DNA of 34,190 nucleotides from the NCBI GenBank assembly GCA_025937085.1, contig JAICSC010000005.1:1-34190 (forward strand), read 5' to 3'. Below the pieces are notes generated by a model. The model saw only the letters and a list, made by a program, of their open reading frames with translations. It ran no database searches and was not told the DNA's origin. Position numbers and translations under genes: made by a program. Within the stretch, counting starts at the first letter, position 1. The number at the start of each line of letters is the position of its first letter. This DNA comes from Nocardioides sp. (GTDB lineage Bacteria > Actinomycetota > Actinomycetes > Propionibacteriales > Nocardioidaceae). Below are positions 21,304-33,870 of this stretch, in pieces.

Positions 21304-22536
21304 TCAGGCCTTCAGGGCGTAGTCCTCGAGCAGTCGCCGGCCGATGATCATCCGCTGGATGTCGGCGGTGCCCTCGCCGATCAGCAGCATCGGGGCCTCG
21401 CGGTACAGCCGCTCGATCTCGTACTCCTTGGAGAAGCCGTAGCCACCGTGGATGCGGAACGAGTCCTCGACCACCTGGGCGCAGTACTCCGAGGCGAGGT
21501 ACTTGGCCATCCCGGCCTCGAGGTCGTTGCGCTCGCCCTTGTCCTTCAGCCGGGCGGCCTTGACGACCAACGCGTGCGCGGCCTCGATCTTGGTCGCCAT
21601 CTCCGCCAGCCGGAACAGCACGGCCTGGTGGTCGGCGATCCGCTTGCCGAAGGTGTGGCGCTGCTGGGCGTAGGCCACACCCAGCTCGAAGGCCCGGTTC
21701 GCGACGCCGCAGCCGCGGGCGGCGACGTTGACGCGGCCGACCTCGACGCCGTCCATCATCTGGTAGAAGCCCTTGCCCGGCTCGCCGCCCAGGATCTGGT
21801 CGGCGGAGATTCGATGCCCTTCGAAGACCAGCTCCGTGGTGTCGACGCCCTTGTAGCCCATCTTCTCGATCTTGCCGGGCACCGTCACGCCCTGGGCGGT
21901 CTCCCCGAAGCCCTCCTGCTTCTCCACCAGGAAGGTCGTCATGTTCTTGTAGACGCTGTCGGCACCCTCGTCGGTCTTGACCAGGACGGCCACCAGGTTG
22001 GCCGAGCCGCCGTTGGTCACCCACATCTTCTGACCGTCGATCACGTACGTCGTGCCGTCCCCGTCGTCCATCTGTCCGCCGTCCGCCTCCGCGTCGAGCA
22101 CCGCCTTCGTCGTGATCGCGCTGACGTCGGAACCGCATCCCGGCTCGCTCATCGAGAAGGCACCACGGATCTCGCCGGTGGCCATCTTCGGCAGGTACTT
22201 CCGCTTCTGCTCATCGGTGCCGTGCTGAAGGAGCATGTAGGCGACGATGAAGTGGGTGTTGATGATGCCGCTGACGCTCATCCAGCCGCGGGAGATCTCC
22301 TCGACCGCGAGCGCGTAGGTCAGCAGCGACTCGCCCAGCCCGTCGTACTCCTCGGGGATCGTCAGCCCGAAGATGCCGAGCTCCTTCATCCCCTCCACGA
22401 TCTGGGTGGGGTACTCGTCGCGGTGCTCGAGCTCGGTCGCGACCGGGAGGATCTCGCGCTCGACGAACCCGCGGACCGCCTTGAGGATCTCGGACTGGTC
22501 GTCGGTGAGACCGTCGGTCTGGCACAGGCGACCCAT
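21304..22536 (-). CDS. acyl-CoA dehydrogenase family protein
   Basis: IRGAFSMSEPGCGSDVSAITTKAV; FGKRIADHQAVLFRLAEMATKIEAAHALV; GGYGFSKEYEIERLYREAPMLLIGEGTADIQRMII. Confidence 0.95.
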   Translation of the reverse strand: MGRLCQTDGLTDDQSEILKAVRGFVEREILPVATELEHRDEYPTQIVEGMKELGIFGLTIPEEYDGLGESLLTYALAVEEISRGWMSVSGIINTHFIVAYMLLQHGTDEQKRKYLPKMATGEIRGAFSMSEPGCGSDVSAITTKAVLDAEADGGQMDDGDGTTYVIDGQKMWVTNGGSANLVAVLVKTDEGADSVYKNMTTFLVEKQEGFGETAQGVTVPGKIEKMGYKGVDTTELVFEGHRISADQILGGEPGKGFYQMMDGVEVGRVNVAARGCGVANRAFELGVAYAQQRHTFGKRIADHQAVLFRLAEMATKIEAAHALVVKAARLKDKGERNDLEAGMAKYLASEYCAQVVEDSFRIHGGYGFSKEYEIERLYREAPMLLIGEGTADIQRMIIGRRLLEDYALKA

Positions 22537-22568
22537 GGTGGCTCCTTCCGGTGGGGGCCCCGCGCACG

Positions 22569-24728
22569 CTACCCGGAGCGGCCGCCGTCCGGCGCGTGTC
22601 CGCCTGTGGCATCGACCACTCCCATCCGTCGCGCCAGCGACGCGGCCAGATAGGTGGCGTACTCCGGGGTGACATGCTCCTTGTCGCGCAGCGTGATCAT
22701 GCCGCCGACGACGGACGGACACATCCCGCCATGGCAGAACCACCGCATCGCGCCCACGAACCGCACGCCCTGGTCCTGCGCCGCTGCCCGGAACGCCATC
22801 TGGACCCGGTGCGCCCCACCCCGCCGGTGGAAGAGACAGTCGCCGAGATCCACCCCACCGCGCGTCGACAGGCAGACGCCCGGTTCGCGCGGCAGCAGCG
22901 GTGTGTCACCGAGGACCACGACGTGCCCAGCGTCCGCCGACAGCTGCCGCAGCATCTCGCCGACCCCGGACCGGGTGGCCTCGAGGTACGCCGTGCGGTC
23001 GCTGTCGTGGAGTCCGATGCGGGTGCCGTCGGGCAGCTCGACCGGGGAGGCGCCGCGGGAGGAGACCACGACCCAGTCGGGGTGCAGGTCGGCGATGGTC
23101 GTCATCGCCCACTGCTTGAACGCCTGGCAGGCGTCCCACGCCCGACCGGTGGCGGTGTCGACCTGGTCGTACGACGAGACCGAGCAGCCGCTGTAGACCA
23201 GGGTGTAGACCCGGTACCCGTCGCGACGCCCGATCTCGTCGAGCGCCGGCGACCAGGCGCGGGCGTGGGAATCCCCGAACACCACGATGCTCCGGTGCGC
23301 CGAGGGGTCGCCGGCCGGGCACAGGCGCGTCGTACCGGTGCGATAGTCGCAGTCACCGAGCGGGGCGGTGTCCTTGCGGATCCCCAGCAGCGACGGGGTG
23401 AGCCGGCTCGGCACCGCCTGGTGCTCCTGGGCGGCCAGGACGGACGCCTCCACCAGCGCGACCTTCGGGTTGCCGCTGAGGTGGTCGCCCTTGAAGTCGC
23501 TGGTGGTGATGGCCGGGTTGTCCCCGCCGCCGCCGAGCTGCTGGTCGACGTAGCCGCGGCCGACACCGGCGACGCCGAGGACGAGCACCAGGGTCGCCGG
23601 GTAGAGGAGCAGCGCCCGGCTCGGGCGTCGCCAGGTGACTCCGCGGCGGAACGGCGTCTCCACCCAGCGGTAGGTCGCCGCGCTGAGGACGAAGGTGAGC
23701 ACCAGCAGCGCGACCAGCGTGAGATGGGGCAAGGGGCGGCGGTGCCAGTGGGCCTCCGCCAGCACCAGGACCGGCCAGTGCCAGAGGTACAGCGAGTACG
23801 ACCAGTCCCCGACGACCTGTGCCGGGCGCAGTGACAGGAGGCGCCGAACCGCTGAGGGGCCGCAGGCCCCGGAGACGATCAGCAGCGCGGCTCCCGCGAT
23901 CGGCAGGGCGATCGCGTAGCCCGGGACCTGGGTGTGGGCGGTGAAGGCGAGGACCGATACCGCGATCGCGGCCAGACCCACGAGCGACAACCCCTCGGTC
24001 GCGATGCGTGGGAGTGCCCAGGTACGTCGTGACAGCACCACCGCGACGGCGCTGCCCGCGCCGAGCTCCCAGGCCCGGGCGGCCGTCGAGAAGTAGGCGG
24101 CGGTCGGGTCGTGGTAGGTGAACCACACGGAGTAGGCGAGCGACGCGGTCGACAGCAGCACGATCGTGGCGAGGACGAGCCACCAGATGCGGGTGGACCG
24201 CCGCCGGTGTGCCAGCCAGACGCAGCCCAGCAGCACCAGTGGCCAGACCAGGTAGTACTGCTCCTCGACGGCCAGCGACCAGTAGTGCTGGAGCGGCGAC
24301 TGACCCTGACCCTGCGCGAAGTAGTCGGTCGCGACCGACGAGAAGCGGAGGTTGGCGGCGAAGAGCGACGCCCAGGTGGCGTCCTTGACCACCTCGAGGG
24401 CCCGGAGCAGCGGCAGTACCACCAGCGAGCCCACCACCGTGACGACCAGGATCACCGAGGCGGCGGGCAGGATCCGCCGGGCCCGCCGCGCGTAGAACCC
24501 GGCCAGCGAGATGTGCTGGTCGCGTTGTGCCTCGCGCAGCAGCAGCGTGGTGATCAGGAAGCCCGAGATGACGAAGAAGACGTCGACACCGACGTACCCG
24601 CCGGACAGGGTCGTGAACCCGGCATGGTCGACCATCACGATCCCGACCGCGAGCGCGCGCAGCCCCTGGATGTCGGGCCGGAAGCCGCCTACGCCGCGCG
24701 TCGGTGTGGCGGCCGTGGTGGACGACAT
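22569..24728 (-). CDS. acyltransferase-3 (OafA/YrhL-like) with C-terminal SGNH domain
   Basis: FRPDIQGLRALAVGIVMVDHAG...GGYVGVDVFFVISGFLITTLLL; SIVVFGDSHARAWSPALDEIG; true start MSSTTAATP at 24728. Confidence 0.93.
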   Translation of the reverse strand: MSSTTAATPTRGVGGFRPDIQGLRALAVGIVMVDHAGFTTLSGGYVGVDVFFVISGFLITTLLLREAQRDQHISLAGFYARRARRILPAASVILVVTVVGSLVVLPLLRALEVVKDATWASLFAANLRFSSVATDYFAQGQGQSPLQHYWSLAVEEQYYLVWPLVLLGCVWLAHRRRSTRIWWLVLATIVLLSTASLAYSVWFTYHDPTAAYFSTAARAWELGAGSAVAVVLSRRTWALPRIATEGLSLVGLAAIAVSVLAFTAHTQVPGYAIALPIAGAALLIVSGACGPSAVRRLLSLRPAQVVGDWSYSLYLWHWPVLVLAEAHWHRRPLPHLTLVALLVLTFVLSAATYRWVETPFRRGVTWRRPSRALLLYPATLVLVLGVAGVGRGYVDQQLGGGGDNPAITTSDFKGDHLSGNPKVALVEASVLAAQEHQAVPSRLTPSLLGIRKDTAPLGDCDYRTGTTRLCPAGDPSAHRSIVVFGDSHARAWSPALDEIGRRDGYRVYTLVYSGCSVSSYDQVDTATGRAWDACQAFKQWAMTTIADLHPDWVVVSSRGASPVELPDGTRIGLHDSDRTAYLEATRSGVGEMLRQLSADAGHVVVLGDTPLLPREPGVCLSTRGGVDLGDCLFHRRGGAHRVQMAFRAAAQDQGVRFVGAMRWFCHGGMCPSVVGGMITLRDKEHVTPEYATYLAASLARRMGVVDATGGHAPDGGRSG

Positions 24729-24857
24729 GGCGGGTTTTCCCTCGTGAGACTGTGGCGGACGGGCCACGGGTGGCACATGGTGTACGCCGACCACCCGCGA
24801 GCCGGGCACTCCCGGGAACGATGTGTCGCTCACCGGAGCCGCGGTTATCCTACTGAG

Positions 24858-25955
24858 ATGTCCGCCCCTCCCCCGAAACCGCGGCATCGCGAGTCGCGGC
24901 AGGCATGGGGGCCGTGGTGGCTCCCGGCGGTCGCCGTCGTCGTTCTCCTGACCGGCATGGGGGTGCTCCTCGGAACCGTGCGCGGCGACGGGACCGCAGG
25001 CCTGGGCCGGGTGGCGAATGCCGACGGCGGCACGACGGCACGTGGGGCCGATCGTCCGGCCGACACGGCCTCGGGACCGGCCACGAGGTCGAGCAAGGTC
25101 TCGCGCAGCAACCCCCGCCCGGCGCCGTACCACGTGGTCAGCGGTGCGGTGATCCGGCACAAGACGGCCGCTCAGCTGCGCGCCGAGCGGGCGCTGCTGA
25201 TCGCCTCCCGGTCGTTCTCGGTCACGATCGGGACGTTCAACGTGCTGGGCAGCAACCACACGGCTCGCGGGGGTGACCACCCTCGCTACCCGAGCGCAGG
25301 AGTCCGCTCGGTGGGTGCGGCGAACCTGATCCGCCGGCACGGGGTGGACGTGCTGGGCGCCCAGGAGCTCAAGCCCGACCAGCTCAACGCGCTGAAGCGG
25401 ATGACCGGGATGGCGGCCTGGCCGGACTTCGGCTTCGGGTCGCGCAACACCGACGACAACATCCTCTACGACCCCTCGAAGTTCGAGTTCGTCTCGGGCA
25501 CCAGCTTCTCGCTCCGGTTCATGAACGCCGTCCGGCCGCAGACGGTCCTGCTGCTGCGCGACCGGGCCACCGGTCGCGAGGCGTACTTCGTCAACATGCA
25601 TGCCTCCGCGGTGACCGCGCCGCGGTACGCCGCCTCCCGCAACGCCGGCCATCTGCTCGCTGCGGCCGAGATCAACAAGCTCAGGGCCGCGAACCCCGGG
25701 ATCCCGATCTTCCTCACCGGCGACATGAACGACCGGGCCGGCTTCTTCTGCCGGTTCGTGCCGCGCACCGGCATGGTGGCCGCGGTCGGTGGCAACGACA
25801 CGGGCGGCTGCCATCCCGCGCCGCATCTCGCCGTCGACTGGATCCTCGGCACCCCGGACGTGACGTTCTCGAACTACTGGGAGGACCGCAGTCCGATCGG
25901 GCGGGTCAGCGACCACTTCTTCGTCAGTGCGGTCGCCCACGTGCCCGGTCGCTGA
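24858..25955 (+). CDS. exported endonuclease/exonuclease/phosphatase (EEP) family protein
   Basis: N-terminal TM anchor; IGTFNVLGSN, GAQELKPDQ, FLTGDMNDR, VDWILG, RVSDHFFV catalytic-type motifs. Confidence 0.87.
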   Translation: MSAPPPKPRHRESRQAWGPWWLPAVAVVVLLTGMGVLLGTVRGDGTAGLGRVANADGGTTARGADRPADTASGPATRSSKVSRSNPRPAPYHVVSGAVIRHKTAAQLRAERALLIASRSFSVTIGTFNVLGSNHTARGGDHPRYPSAGVRSVGAANLIRRHGVDVLGAQELKPDQLNALKRMTGMAAWPDFGFGSRNTDDNILYDPSKFEFVSGTSFSLRFMNAVRPQTVLLLRDRATGREAYFVNMHASAVTAPRYAASRNAGHLLAAAEINKLRAANPGIPIFLTGDMNDRAGFFCRFVPRTGMVAAVGGNDTGGCHPAPHLAVDWILGTPDVTFSNYWEDRSPIGRVSDHFFVSAVAHVPGR

Positions 25956-26107: not shown

Positions 26108-27553
26108 ATGCAGCCACCCCTCGCCCGACCGCACCCACGCCGTTGGGCCCTGGGGTCGGGGGCGGCCGGCGTCGGCCTCACGGCTCTCGCGCTGCTGGTC
26201 ACGAGCACCGCCCCGTCGGACGCGACTCACCCGCAGGACGAGGTGGCCTCCGTGGTGTCGGCCCACGTGCCGAACGCCAAGAAGACCTCCGGAGCCGGGG
26301 TGGACACCATCCGCATCACACAGGCCAACCTCAAGTCCGGCGAACGAGCCGACCGGTTCCAGTCGGACGTCTCGACCGTGCTGTCCGGCCATCCCGACTT
26401 CATCACCTACAACGAGGTGCCGTTCCGGCAGGACACCGTGCTGGCACCGCCCCCGGGCTACGCCATGTGGCGCACCTCCGGGCAGTACCAAGGTGAGACA
26501 CCGGTGGCCTGGCGAGCCGACGAGTGGGTCGCCATCGCCCACGGCACCCAGCGGCTCAGCAACCGCAAGGGCCGCCTGAAGTGGCAGCACGTCGATTGGG
26601 GCATCCGGTACGCCAACTGGGTGACGCTGCGCAGCCTCGACGGCAGGACGGTCTCGGTCATCTCCGCCCACCTGGCACCGGTCATCTCGATCACGGAGGG
26701 CCTGCAGCCCCGGGAGGTGCGACACCTCGGCAACCTGGTGGACACGCTGGCCGCGGCCGGCCCCGTCCTGGTCGGCGGCGACTTCAACATGCCGTACGAC
26801 GGCAGCAGCTATCTGCGGTCCCTGTTCGACACCTTCCAGATGGTCCCCAGCTACGACGCCCTGGGCGCTCACTTCGCGACCGGCGACCACCACGGGGCGA
26901 CCATCGACTACCTGTTCCTCCGCCAGGACCCGCTGGCCCCCGTGCTCACCTTCACCTCCCAGCACGCCACCGAGCTGTACTCCGACCACGACGCCGTGAC
27001 CGCCGACCTGACCTGGAACACGGCCGCCCCCGGTAGCGCCTACCGGGTCGTGCCCGGCATCGTGGTCAGCCACCCCAACGGCACGCACCGCGATCGGCGG
27101 GTCGTGCTGCGAACCATGATCCAGGCGATCGACCACGCGCCGGAAGGCGCGGCCGTGCACCTGACCACGACGAAGCTGACCACACCGGCCATGGTCCGGG
27201 CCCTGAACCGGGCCTTCCAGCGCGGCGTCCACGTGCAACTGATCATCCGCGCCCGCACGCTGTCCCCGGCCGCCAAGCACTTCCGTCACCTGCTCGGTCA
27301 CCGCAAGCACGCGTCGTCGTTCGCCATCGGTTGCCGCAGCCACTGCCGCGCCATGGTCAAGCGGCGCCACCTGGCCGCCACCGAGCTGCTGGTCAGCGCC
27401 GTGGCGACGACCCCGGCTGTCTGGATCCACTCCGACCGCGGGTTGACGGTGAAGGCCAACCGTCACCTGACCACCGCGGTCGTGACCGCCCGCCAGGGCG
27501 CCTACGACCGCGCGTTCCGGCGCTTCTTCCGCCTGGCCGACCGGCCGATCTGA
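26108..27553 (+). CDS. exported EEP family protein with degenerate PLD-like C-terminal domain
   Basis: Signal-like N-terminus; ITQANLKSGE, TYNEVPF, VISAHLAP, GGDFNMPYDG, TIDYLF, YSDHDAVTADL; C-terminus aligns by eye to the N-terminal half of the PLD protein at 30478-31863. Confidence 0.85.
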   Translation: MQPPLARPHPRRWALGSGAAGVGLTALALLVTSTAPSDATHPQDEVASVVSAHVPNAKKTSGAGVDTIRITQANLKSGERADRFQSDVSTVLSGHPDFITYNEVPFRQDTVLAPPPGYAMWRTSGQYQGETPVAWRADEWVAIAHGTQRLSNRKGRLKWQHVDWGIRYANWVTLRSLDGRTVSVISAHLAPVISITEGLQPREVRHLGNLVDTLAAAGPVLVGGDFNMPYDGSSYLRSLFDTFQMVPSYDALGAHFATGDHHGATIDYLFLRQDPLAPVLTFTSQHATELYSDHDAVTADLTWNTAAPGSAYRVVPGIVVSHPNGTHRDRRVVLRTMIQAIDHAPEGAAVHLTTTKLTTPAMVRALNRAFQRGVHVQLIIRARTLSPAAKHFRHLLGHRKHASSFAIGCRSHCRAMVKRRHLAATELLVSAVATTPAVWIHSDRGLTVKANRHLTTAVVTARQGAYDRAFRRFFRLADRPI

Positions 27554-28605
27554 AACCACGCGCGAGGCTGCGCGGGCTCGGCCGTGCGGGCGCGGCCGTG
27601 CTCGGCGCGGACGTCGGCCAGCAGCGTCGCCACCAGCTCCACCGCGACCTGGGCGACCTCACGGTCGGTCACGGTGTCCGGCGTACGTCGGTCCGGGAGC
27701 TCGTCGGGTACCAGCAGGTGTGAGAGGTCGCCGCGCACGTCGAAGCCCCGCCTGCGCACGAAGGCGACAGCGCGCGCCGACCGCCGGCGACAGTCCTGGA
27801 CCTGCTCGGGAAGCGGCCAGTACTTCTCGCCACCACGCGGCACGAGCCGCTCGTCTGCCAGGAACGTCCGGATCCAGACCCCGCGGTCGAAGGCGCGGTC
27901 GAAGCCGACCAGGTGCCGGTTGACCCGACGCAGCGTCTCGGCCTCGACGACGCCCATCGAGACGTTGGGGAAGCTGTCGCGGGTGTCGTAGAGCACCGGG
28001 TCGACGCCGATCGTCTCGGCAAACGTCGTCCACAGCTGGTGGCGCGGCGCCGCGGTGTCGACGGGAAGCACGTGGATCCGTTCCGCCGGCACGGCTTCGA
28101 CCCATCGTCGTAGCACCAGCCGGAGGTCCAGGGCGCGCCAGTTCCAGACCACGGTCGGGCGCTTGGACACCCGGGTGGAGTACTCCGACATCGGGATCGT
28201 GCTCTTGTTCTTCAGGCTCTCCTGCCAGCTGGCGGTGAAGAGGTCCAACGCGTTGCGTGCGGTGACGATCACGTGCACCTCCGCCGGAGCCAGGTCCTCG
28301 ACCAACCGTCGGGCCTGGTCGCCCGAGGCGGAGGCCAAGAACTCGTGGCTCACCAGGCCGGTCCCCGATGCCTCGCGCAGCTCGGCCCGGATCCGGTCCC
28401 ACGCCGTCCGCTGCGCCCGAGGGAGGGTGTCGATGTGGGGACCCTGACGGATGATTCGGCTGGCCCAGAGGTGGTCCCGCCTCTCACGGCCGGGCAGGAC
28501 GACGCCGTCGCGCTTCAGCTGCGGACGCGACGACCACGCGATGGTCTGCAGGTATGACGTCCCGGTCTTGGGCAGGCCGATGTGGAGGTAGACCCGCTCG
28601 ACCAT
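27502..28605 (-). CDS. sulfotransferase family protein
   Basis: VYLHIGLPKTGTSYLQTIAWSSRPQLKRDGVVLPG (5'-PSB-like PAPS loop); VHVIVTARNALDLFTASWQESLKN. Confidence 0.85.
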   Translation of the reverse strand: MVERVYLHIGLPKTGTSYLQTIAWSSRPQLKRDGVVLPGRERRDHLWASRIIRQGPHIDTLPRAQRTAWDRIRAELREASGTGLVSHEFLASASGDQARRLVEDLAPAEVHVIVTARNALDLFTASWQESLKNKSTIPMSEYSTRVSKRPTVVWNWRALDLRLVLRRWVEAVPAERIHVLPVDTAAPRHQLWTTFAETIGVDPVLYDTRDSFPNVSMGVVEAETLRRVNRHLVGFDRAFDRGVWIRTFLADERLVPRGGEKYWPLPEQVQDCRRRSARAVAFVRRRGFDVRGDLSHLLVPDELPDRRTPDTVTDREVAQVAVELVATLLADVRAEHGRARTAEPAQPRAWFQIGRSARRKKRRNARS

Positions 28606-28829: not shown

Positions 28830-28875
28830 TCGTCTCTCCGGCCTACTCGTCTCGGGCCTACCGGTCTCAGGCCCA
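28829..28875. repeat. 15-17-bp degenerate tandem repeat (3 copies)
   Basis: CTCGTCTCTCCGGCCTA CTCGTCTCGGGCCTA CCGGTCTCAGGCCCA; spans the stop-to-start junction of two minus-strand genes. Confidence 0.7.
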
Positions 28876-30417
28876 CTGGGCGACCAACCGGCCGACCGCC
28901 ATGGCTCGGTCGGGCGACACCTCCGCTTCCCGCTCCTCCAGCTCCTCGGTCCGGACGACCCGCCCGCCGTGCCGCTCGAGCCGGCGCTGCATCTGGGCGA
29001 GGTCGACCGGCAGCAGCCGGGCCGGGGAGGCGCCGCCACCGGTCCAGACTTCCAGGTACAGACGCCCCCCGTCACGCAGGGCCAGCGACGCGAACCGCGC
29101 CAGCGACTCTCGCCCGTAGCCGTTGGTGGCGTCGGCGACATGCTGGGCGAGCATCGCGCGAGGCGCCGGCGCGTGGGCCAGTCGCGCTCCCTCCCCCAGC
29201 ACCGAGCGCAGATCGGTCAGGTTCAGCTGCCTGACGCCGAGCGTCAACCCCCGTTCGGCGGCGGCCGAGGCGGCCCCGTCGAGCGAGCCAGGCACGTAGT
29301 CGTACGCCGTCACGGACCGGCCCTGGCGCGCCAGCCACAGCGCGTCGCGGCCACGCCCGGCGCCGACGTCGAGGACCTGCGTCTCGGAAGACTCCTCCTC
29401 GTGGAGGAGCTGGGCCAACGCCGAAACGCCCTTGGGGGGCGGCTGTCCCCGGAACCGACTGAAGGCGCGCTGCCAGTCCCGGCGGAAGGCCGACCCTCCG
29501 CGGAACCAGCCGTTGAGCTGGTCGACGGTGTGCCGCGGGGTCCGGAAGCGGAATGCCGGGTCGGGCACCCGCCAGGCGTCGCCGTAGCAGGCCCTCAGGA
29601 GCTCTTCGGGTCGGGCCGGCGCCGGGAACTCCCGACCGCTCAGCGTCACCGTCGAACGAGGGCGGATCCACTCCGGCCGGAAGTCCTCGCCGACCTCACC
29701 CATGAGGTAGAGCCGTCCGCTGTCCATGAAGCCGCCGAAGACGTCGAGCCCGCGGCGGGTGCCGTCGTCCTCCACGAGATCCACCCGGAAGGCGGCCCCG
29801 CTGTACCGGTAGGTGTGCAGCCCCTCGCGGCGCAGCAGCCGTTGCAGCTGGAACGACTCCAGGATGACGTCGCACGGGTGTTGGTGGCGGCTGACGTAGC
29901 CGAGGTCCGCATCGGAGTCGTGGCCCAGGAAGTCACCCTCACGCACGGCCCCCAGGAGGGTGCCGTAGGCCAGGAAGGGTTCAACGCCGGCGCGTTCCAG
30001 ACCTGCCAGCACGATGGAGATGGCGTCGAGCAGGGGCCGCATGTCCCGCTGGGAACGTCCTTCGAAGGTGGCGGTCATCTTCCCGGACTTGTCCATGCCC
30101 AGCGGGGCCCCGGCCGCGTTGACGACCGAGATCCGGCGATCCGCGGAGCCGAACCGCAGCTCGGAGTCGTACAGCACGCGTCCGGCCACGTGCGTGCGAA
30201 CCGTCACCGTCGTCGAGCCGTCGAGGTACTGGCGCAGCGGCCTCGGCCACCCGAAGCGACGCCACGGAAGGAACGGCAGGTCGGCATCCCGGCCCGTCCA
30301 GAAGGACCACACCCGCTGCCCGTCGAACAGCACGTCGAGCGGCTCGTTGCCGATCGCCCAGAGCAGCATCCCCTTCTCGTCGACGGACCGGACCCGCACC
30401 TTCGCCCACCTCGTCAC
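28867..30417 (-). CDS. LicD-like (fukutin/FKRP-type) transferase fused to class I SAM-dependent methyltransferase
   Basis: EPFLAYGTLLGAVREGDFLGHDSDADLGYVSR (LicD-type); TQVLDVGAGRGRDALWLARQGRSVTAYDYVPGSLDGAAS (SAM motif I); GTG start at 30417. Confidence 0.8.
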   Translation of the reverse strand: MTRWAKVRVRSVDEKGMLLWAIGNEPLDVLFDGQRVWSFWTGRDADLPFLPWRRFGWPRPLRQYLDGSTTVTVRTHVAGRVLYDSELRFGSADRRISVVNAAGAPLGMDKSGKMTATFEGRSQRDMRPLLDAISIVLAGLERAGVEPFLAYGTLLGAVREGDFLGHDSDADLGYVSRHQHPCDVILESFQLQRLLRREGLHTYRYSGAAFRVDLVEDDGTRRGLDVFGGFMDSGRLYLMGEVGEDFRPEWIRPRSTVTLSGREFPAPARPEELLRACYGDAWRVPDPAFRFRTPRHTVDQLNGWFRGGSAFRRDWQRAFSRFRGQPPPKGVSALAQLLHEEESSETQVLDVGAGRGRDALWLARQGRSVTAYDYVPGSLDGAASAAAERGLTLGVRQLNLTDLRSVLGEGARLAHAPAPRAMLAQHVADATNGYGRESLARFASLALRDGGRLYLEVWTGGGASPARLLPVDLAQMQRRLERHGGRVVRTEELEEREAEVSPDRAMAVGRLVAQWA

Positions 30418-30477: not shown

Positions 30478-31863
30478 TCAGTCCATGTCGACGTGTGCGT
30501 AGGGGTCGACGGGGCCGAGACGACGTGCGCTGGTGGTCATCGGCACGCTCTTGGGGAAGTTGTTCAACCAGTACTCGATGTAGCCCTGGTAGCGGAGGGT
30601 CGCGTGGGTACGCCGGATCACGCCCATGTTCTCGTCGGACCCGGTCGCCAGGGCCGAGAGGTTCGCCGAGCCCTGGACGGTGACGTGCGCCCCCCGGTTG
30701 TGACCTAGGTGTCCGTTGATGGTGAGCACCTTCAGGTGGAAGTAGTTGTCGAACTCACCGTCGCCGTTGAAGTCCTGCACGAGATGCTTGATCGGCACGG
30801 CTCCTCGGCGCCCGCTGGGATCGGTCAGCAGACGATGGATGTCGCGGCCGAGCACGGTGTAGCCGACCCGGATGTCGCAGCCCGCCTGCCACAGCTGCCT
30901 GATTCGCTGTGCCGCCCGCATGCCGAGGGCGCCGCGCATCACGTCGGGGGCCATCCGGATGATCGTCCGCCCGTGCTCGCCGGCGCCCTTGGCACCCCAG
31001 CAGCGCACCTTGTCGAGCAGCGCCATCCGCGGGTCGCGGTGGAAGTTCCGCCCGCGCTCCGGAGCGAACGACAAGGTCACGCTGCCCGCCCTCATCTTCT
31101 GGTACTGGCGAGGGGCGGGCCGGTCACGGAGCATCTGGCCGAAGATGTGCCGCCCGAAGCGGTACAGCTTGCGGCTGTGGATCGCGTAGACGTCGTTCCA
31201 CTGGTTCGTCGAGGCGGCCGCGGTCAGGTTCATCGAGCCCTCCATCACCACCTTGTGGGCACCGCCGGTGTGGGAGAACAGGAAGAACTTCGAGTGCGCC
31301 TGACCCCGGGAACCACGGCACGAGTGGACGCAGACCATGGCGTGGCTGCGCCGCCGCTTGGGCAGCTTCATGTTCCGGTTGTTCTGGTGGAGCCCCGCCC
31401 GCAGTCGCCGGAACGACGGGTTGGGGACCTCTGTCATGTTGTTCTGATCCATGATCGCCAGGACGCGCACCCCGCGCTGCTGGGCCCGGAGCAGGTAGGT
31501 GACCACCGAGCGCGACATGATGTTCCAGGACATGATCCGGATGATGCTCTTCTTCCGGGCGTGCTGGATCGCGGCCTGGACGACGTTGAGGGCGCGGTAC
31601 TTGGTGGGGCCGTCGCCGAGCGGGTTGTTGAACGTGGGTCCGTAGTCGGGCTGGAAGCGGTGGACCTTCTTCGTCCCGCTGCGGGCTGCGGCCTGGCCGC
31701 TGCCGACGCCCAGTGCTCCGGTCGTCCTCGCTGTCACGGTGCGCGTCGCCGCGGTGGTGCCCGTGGTCCGGTCCCCCGCCGGCGACGCAGTCGCCGATGG
31801 AACGGTCACGATGGTCGCGGCCAGCAGAGCAGCGCTCCACCCCGCGATCGACCTAGCGCGCAT
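30478..31863 (-). CDS. exported phospholipase D-like domain protein
   Basis: Signal peptide MRARSIAGWSAALLAATIVTVPSATASPA; two HxK motifs with trailing G-S-x-N: AHSKFFLF...EGSMNLT and FHLKVLTI...QGSANLSALA. Confidence 0.88.
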   Translation of the reverse strand: MRARSIAGWSAALLAATIVTVPSATASPAGDRTTGTTAATRTVTARTTGALGVGSGQAAARSGTKKVHRFQPDYGPTFNNPLGDGPTKYRALNVVQAAIQHARKKSIIRIMSWNIMSRSVVTYLLRAQQRGVRVLAIMDQNNMTEVPNPSFRRLRAGLHQNNRNMKLPKRRRSHAMVCVHSCRGSRGQAHSKFFLFSHTGGAHKVVMEGSMNLTAAASTNQWNDVYAIHSRKLYRFGRHIFGQMLRDRPAPRQYQKMRAGSVTLSFAPERGRNFHRDPRMALLDKVRCWGAKGAGEHGRTIIRMAPDVMRGALGMRAAQRIRQLWQAGCDIRVGYTVLGRDIHRLLTDPSGRRGAVPIKHLVQDFNGDGEFDNYFHLKVLTINGHLGHNRGAHVTVQGSANLSALATGSDENMGVIRRTHATLRYQGYIEYWLNNFPKSVPMTTSARRLGPVDPYAHVDMD

Positions 31864-32526: not shown

Positions 32527-33870
32527 GTGACCTCCACGCCGACCCGTGTCTTCGTCGCACGGCTCGTCGGACTGCCGATCTTCGACCCCCAGGGGGACCA
32601 GGTCGGCAAGGTTCGCGACGTGGTGGTCGCCATCCGCTCGGAGGGCAACCAGCCGCGGGTGCTCGGCATGGTCGCCGAGGTCTTCGGCAGGCGTCGGATC
32701 TTCGTGCCGATGACCAGGGTGACCCACATCGACAGCGGGCAGGTGTACACCACCGGCCTGCTGAACATGCGGCGCTTCGAGCAGCGGCCCACCGAGACGC
32801 TGGTGATCGGCCAGCTGCTGGACCGGACCGTGACGATCACGTCCGGCGCGGAGGGCGCACAGGGCAATGGCGAGGCCGATGGGCTGCGCGGCACCGTGTA
32901 CGACGTCGCCATGGAGCAGGTGCGCACCCGGGACTGGGTGCTCAGCCGAGTGGCGGTGCAGGAGCCCGGCAAGGGCCTGCGCCGCAAGGGACAGACCCAC
33001 GTCGCCGAGTGGCGCGACGTCGTCGGCCTGGTCGGGCGCGAGCCGACCCAGGGTGCGACCCACCTGATCGCCGCCCTCAACGAGATGCGGGCCGCCGACG
33101 CCGCCAACGTGATCCACGACCTGCCGCCCGAGCGCCGTACCGCCGTCGTCGCGGCGATGGACGACGAGCGGCTGGCTGACGTGCTCGAAGAGCTCCCGGA
33201 CGAGGACCAGGTCGAGATCCTCGAGCACCTCGACAGCGAGCGCGCCGCCGACGTCCTGGAGGAGATGTCCCCCGACGACGCCGCCGACCTGATCGCGGAC
33301 CTGCCACCGGACACCGCCGCCAGGCTGCTGGACCTGATGGAGCCCACGGAGGCGGAGGACGTGCGGCGGCTGTTGTCCTACGCCGAGGAGACCGCCGGCG
33401 CCATGATGACGCCCGAACCGGTGATCCTCGGTCCGGACGCCACGATCGCCGACGCGCTGGCGCACATCCGCAACGCCGAGCTGCCACCGTCCCTCGCCTC
33501 GATGGTCTATGTGTGCCGACAGCCGCTGGAGACCCCGACCGGCAAGCTGCTCGGCGTGGCGCACTTCCAGCGGCTGCTGCGCGAGCCTCCATCGACGTTG
33601 GTGGCCGCGGCGCTCGACCAGTCGATGGACCCGCTGCACCCGGAGGCCACGATCGACGAGGTGGCCGCCCACCTGGCGACGTACAACCTGGTCGCCGCGC
33701 CGGTGGTCGACGAGGACGGCCACCTGCTCGGTGCGGTCACGGTCGACGACCTGCTGGACCACATGCTCCCCGAGAACTGGCGTGACCAGCCGCTGGGCGG
33801 ACACCATCCGGCTCCGCTGTCGCCGCAGGGGGCGCGCCATGGCACCGCGCCGGAGGCGCGCCATGGCTGA
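32527..33870 (+). CDS. MgtE_N/CBS domain protein with PRC-barrel-like N-terminus, lacking the transporter TM domain
   Basis: MTSTPTRVFVARLVGLPIFDPQGDQVGKVRDVVV; MRAADAANVIHDLPPERRTAVVAAMDDERLADVLEELPDEDQVEIL; CBS segments EETAGAMMTPEPVILGPDATIADAL. Confidence 0.88.
   Translation: MTSTPTRVFVARLVGLPIFDPQGDQVGKVRDVVVAIRSEGNQPRVLGMVAEVFGRRRIFVPMTRVTHIDSGQVYTTGLLNMRRFEQRPTETLVIGQLLDRTVTITSGAEGAQGNGEADGLRGTVYDVAMEQVRTRDWVLSRVAVQEPGKGLRRKGQTHVAEWRDVVGLVGREPTQGATHLIAALNEMRAADAANVIHDLPPERRTAVVAAMDDERLADVLEELPDEDQVEILEHLDSERAADVLEEMSPDDAADLIADLPPDTAARLLDLMEPTEAEDVRRLLSYAEETAGAMMTPEPVILGPDATIADALAHIRNAELPPSLASMVYVCRQPLETPTGKLLGVAHFQRLLREPPSTLVAAALDQSMDPLHPEATIDEVAAHLATYNLVAAPVVDEDGHLLGAVTVDDLLDHMLPENWRDQPLGGHHPAPLSPQGARHGTAPEARHG

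Follow-up and report, generated by a model that had tools for sequence, protein, structure and literature searches.

The window analysed here, a stretch of 34,190 nucleotides from Nocardioides sp., is one entire contig of a draft genome. At positions 26108–27553 of its forward strand lies a gene whose translation gives a protein of 481 amino acids, with an ATG start and a stop codon at 27551–27553. Residues 1–60 (26108–26287) read as a signal-peptide-like N-terminus and a variable linker, with a basic start followed by a hydrophobic stretch; this region as a whole is weakly conserved among orthologues. The initial annotation of this DNA had called the protein exported; the N-terminus is indeed of the exported type by sequence, and export itself is to be taken as a prediction. 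There follow an EEP (endonuclease/exonuclease/phosphatase) domain at approximately residues 66–302 (26303–27013) and a half-domain of PLD type, which we term the pseudo-PLD half-domain, at approximately residues 317–481 (27056–27550). The C-terminal part had been placed from 27031 onwards, and the PLD-type domain instead begins at about residue 317 (about position 27056). That two unrelated phosphodiesterase folds are fused in one chain, the EEP site being intact and the HKD half degraded, is upheld by the results below.

The surrounding locus is bordered on the left by a conserved gene for an acyl-CoA dehydrogenase (21304–22602, reverse strand) and on the right by a conserved gene for a PRC-barrel/MgtE_N/CBS protein (32527–33870, forward strand). 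Between them, in addition to the fusion, the window encodes a membrane acyltransferase with Acyl_transf_3 and SGNH domains (22569–24848, reverse strand, start approximate), a second, single-domain EEP protein (24858–25955, forward strand), a sulfotransferase-like protein (27502–28605, reverse strand), a protein combining a LicD-like domain with a SAM methyltransferase (28867–30417, reverse strand) and a secreted-type PLD of two domains (30478–31863, reverse strand), each of which has its HKD motif (AHSK/GSMN in one, HLK/GSAN in the other). In most of the 23 loci compared, these same genes and the fusion lie between the two borders, and the LicD-like and methyltransferase domains are found in one protein. 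The sulfotransferase-like product carries a GLPKTGTSYLQ motif recognised by eye and is kept in the locus, and it gave no Pfam match and no meaningful match in the PDB. Paralogues of it are seen in four loci (L040, L042, L045 and L054), and a single locus stretch can contain as many as six or so. In three loci of N. luteus type (L057, L058, L060) the fusion stands alone between the two border genes, and the sole PLD of these genomes is distant (28–29% identity). The gene content, with three exported-type phosphodiesterases beside LicD-like, acyltransferase and sulfotransferase-like genes, suggests that the locus is a surface-polymer modification island. A search with PADLOC gave no match to a defence system, the match of the neighbouring PLD to NCBIfam DrmC fell far below the cut-off, and a comparison with the phage protein families of PHROGs gave no match for the fusion.

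The EEP core, described as intact in the initial annotation, is so on the evidence of both conservation and fold. The catalytic positions N74, E103, H188, D225, N227, D267, D293 and H294 are invariant across 15 orthologues. In the AlphaFold model, blocks of this domain are mostly at pLDDT 70–95, and a fold search of the PDB with the model returned solved EEP structures (3mpr, 5e-15; 3g6s, 4e-13); a sequence profile of the domain matched 3g6s at 1.4e-5. The Pfam family Exo_endo_phos (PF03372) scored 20.3 bits on the fusion protein, the curated cut-off being 24.5. Known enzymes of the EEP family (3g6s and 3mpr, and the TDP2 and nocturnin folds) share this catalytic domain and carry its catalytic residues, but, unlike the Nocardioides fusion, they have no tail of PLD fold.

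We next consider the tail. Residues 306–481 align with the N-terminal half of the 30478–31863 product with a Smith-Waterman score of 75; shuffled sequences gave a mean of 31.6 (s.d. 5.1, maximum 53) and none of 1000 reached 75. The score against the C-terminal half was 37, a value reached by 116 of 1000 shuffles. BLASTP aligned the tail with the neighbouring PLD over 177 amino acids (24% identity, E 8e-4), and PLDc_2 (PF13091) matched residues 337–385 with an E-value for the domain alone of 3.8e-4, below the Pfam cut-off. When a profile of 23 orthologous tails was compared by hhalign with the N-terminal half of the PLD family, a probability of 99.4 (E 9.6e-22, 163 columns) was obtained, and 30 column shuffles of this comparison gave a probability of at most 2.3. 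The same profile gave 1.9 against the C-terminal half, which is accordingly rejected as the source of the tail. The resemblance to the N-terminal half that had been noticed by eye thus holds.

The AlphaFold model of the full-length protein has low confidence in the tail. Modelled alone, the tail reached pLDDT 93.4 and pTM 0.90, from an alignment of 17 rows made up of orthologues and seven PLD N-terminal halves, the latter of which could bias the model toward the PLD fold. Its best fold matches in the PDB were NucT, Zucchini, PPK1, Nuc and FAM83, in agreement with a C-terminal PLD fold, and weaker matches were to sugar-binding domains of TrmB type. An independent check came from a profile of EEP-PLD orthologues containing no PLD sequences, which matched NucT at 1.2e-3 and Nuc at 1.7e-3. 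We conclude from these alignments and the model that the tail of the 26108–27553 product is a half-domain of the PLD fold.

The catalytic residues of this fold have been lost. The H-x-K of the HKD motif is missing at the catalytic site in all 26 homologous tails; HxK strings occur elsewhere in only three of these proteins, at the wrong position. It is retained in 18 of 20 N-terminal halves of locus PLDs, scored by a strict pattern, and in 7/7 paralogues, and in the alignment H190, K192, N212 and N223 are 100% conserved among the PLD relatives. In the tails, Pro predominates in place of the H, and Thr, Ala or Ser in place of the K. The initial annotation had described the change as HSK to HLA. 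The loss of the HKD site stands, but HLA is only one possible register in the 26108–27553 protein. The multiple alignment sets Ala423 and Thr425 (27374–27382) against His190 and Lys192 of the neighbouring PLD, and His421 is not common to the relatives. GSxN is also lost, in line with the reported loss of GSMN, and the degradation of the H-x-K site proved to be common to all 26 tails checked. The fusion protein has a single PLD half; HKD enzymes use two halves or a homodimer to form one active site. Because the degradation extends across the whole clade and is accompanied by no stop codons, a pseudogene or local decay is rejected. The CxxxC pair, said to be kept, is present as C409 and C413 (27332–27346); across the 26 homologues it is all-or-none, 14 having both cysteines and 12 neither, and the pair is therefore a probable disulfide. 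A369, R372 and G373 of the tail are 100% conserved. No new surface motif that could stand in for the lost site is strongly conserved, the best positions being R444 (0.73) and P423 (0.62). We conclude that the tail, judged by its residues, is catalytically dead and that this loss predates the split of the Nocardioides lineages.

A survey of EEP plus PLD architectures revealed a conserved family, with orthologues of the fusion in 57 of 200 genomes of Nocardioides, the genus of the window and of its named relatives, and one divergent copy elsewhere. The latter, found by a search at the level of the family, is an EEP plus pseudo-PLD protein from another genus (genome G081, L075:8958-10391, reverse strand) that is approximately 29% identical to the window protein, and its tail is also without HKD. 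Outside the genus, no EEP-PLD architecture was found in order-wide (298 genomes) or class-wide (395 genomes) searches, which used a single sequence, are less sensitive and could miss distant copies. In the tree, all 26 dead tails, including the divergent copy, form one clade (100/100), and the locus PLDs form a separate clade (99/98); the AU test (p 0.42) does not decide for or against a sister relation between the two. The description of the tail as half of the neighbouring PLD finds no support in this topology, since the dead tails are one old clade outside that of the locus PLDs. The neighbouring PLD is thus a cousin and not a demonstrated donor, and direct donation is not supported by the tree. 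The simplest reading of the sequences is that the dead tails had a single old origin.

Taken with the intact EEP domain, these features make it fairly probable that the product is an exported, active EEP phosphodiesterase with a non-catalytic pseudo-PLD accessory module, which would hold the enzyme to its substrate or to a surface or serve in protein assembly. The protein would be exported, and its metal-dependent EEP domain would cut phosphate esters. The tail, having lost catalysis, would be retained for its fold, either to keep the EEP domain attached to the substrate or the cell surface, or to assemble it with another protein. Since the locus contains LicD-like, acyltransferase and sulfotransferase-like genes and two other phosphodiesterases, the likeliest substrate may be a glycopolymer on the bacterium's own surface that contains phosphodiesters, an assignment that we put forward tentatively. 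More speculative still is a remodelling system of Nocardioides in which the dead PLD half, turned into a module for glycopolymer binding or for assembly, docks the EEP domain, beside the two other phosphodiesterases, on a phosphodiester-containing surface polymer. We found no description of such a system in the literature, and nothing usable on EEP-PLD fusions or on Nocardioides teichoic acids.

The chief rival to an accessory module of this kind is that the pseudo-PLD half serves for dimerisation: as in Nuc, or like the two halves of an ordinary PLD, it would pair with a second copy of itself or with the active locus PLD, and so bring the active sites of EEP and PLD together. As a rule PLD half-domains act in pairs, as described for Nuc (PMC6008594). 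Furthermore, 33 of the 34 genomes with a close PLD of the locus type (>300 bits) carry the fusion, compared with 57 of 200 overall, and the PLD shares its locus with the fusion in 20 of 23 cases. However, this co-occurrence is confounded by common ancestry and synteny, and the three genomes of N. luteus type carry the fusion without a close PLD. Obligate pairing with the locus PLD is therefore unlikely; homodimerisation is unaffected. Overall we regard dimerisation as rather unlikely.

A binding role for the tail also has to be weighed against the idea that it is what remains of a formerly active fusion, slowly decaying and with no present function. The complete loss of catalytic residues would fit this, as would the rates of change: by the NG86 method, omega was 1.3 to 7 times higher in the tail than in the EEP domain for each pair examined, and in some pairs tail rates resembled those of the signal/linker region. 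In close pairs, tail omega was 0.30–0.60 against 0.07–0.34 for the EEP domain, and in the two most distant pairs it was near 1; NG86 ignores the strong GC bias, so that these values are probably inflated. Nevertheless, omega was below 1 in all close pairs, the fold-core residues are invariant, and the tail is present in every orthologue found, each of the 57 matches reaching at least 90 residues into it. The tail tree shows approximately 25 amino-acid changes per column and not one stop, although under neutrality roughly 50–130 stops would be expected, as estimated from codon content; none of the 57 orthologues has an internal stop. The faster evolution of the tail relative to the EEP domain points to a modest constraint, but by these sequence comparisons the constraint is real, and we consider a functionless relic improbable.

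Far less credible is that the tail acquired a different enzymatic activity. A partly conserved R-l-D-x-N-R stretch at the former GSxN position could be read in this way, but it is absent from the N. luteus group and from the window protein, which has IHSDRG there. Finally, chance or compositional similarity to PLD, to which the pairwise identity of only 24% and the Pfam match under the curated cut-off might point, can be set aside on the strength of the shuffles and the hhalign comparisons, together with the PLD fold matches and the hits of the orthologue-only profile.

Several known systems resemble the tail in part. Over its whole length it is homologous to the N-terminal half of the two-domain secreted PLD-like proteins of Nocardioidaceae, and shares with them an NP-x-G lead-in, an A-x-x-RGV helix and CxxxC; it differs from them in lacking the second half, the H, the K and GSxN, and in being fused behind an EEP domain. 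Nuc and NucT (PDB 1byr and 6ehi) are the solved structures closest to the tail by sequence profile and rank near the top by fold; like the tail, each is a single PLD half-fold. Both keep HKD and are active nucleases, in contrast to the tail, from which HKD is missing; Nuc forms a dimer (PMC6008594). The vertebrate FAM83 proteins, whose DUF1669 domain is a fold match to the tail, likewise have a single, dead PLD-like half; their catalytic histidine is lost, and the non-catalytic domain acts as a partner anchor that binds casein kinase 1 (PMC6008594). FAM83 is of an unrelated lineage, and its domain has no enzyme of a different fold joined to it. The C-terminal domains of the archaeal transcription regulators TrmB and TrmBL2, which gave weaker fold matches, also have a PLD-like fold that lacks HKD; in TrmB this domain binds sugar. 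By analogy, the observed fold and catalytic loss may reflect a FAM83-like binding role. The pseudo-PLD domains that we found in the literature are those of vertebrate FAM83, and the Nocardioides fusion would add an exported-type case from bacteria, present in at least 57 sampled genomes, where a single polypeptide joins the dead PLD domain to an intact enzyme that has another fold and acts on the same type of bond. Since active cousin PLDs are present in the same locus in most genomes, the role of the PLD fold after catalytic loss is directly testable.

In Nocardioidaceae, relatives of the EEP domain are joined to the peptidoglycan-hydrolase domains NlpC/P60 and M23 (L023, L024, L025, L071 and L074), and EEP-only relatives are found on plasmids of Nocardioides and Pimelobacter. 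These may be proteins with which mobile elements open the cell wall, in which case a wall-polymer substrate would be favoured over nucleic acid.
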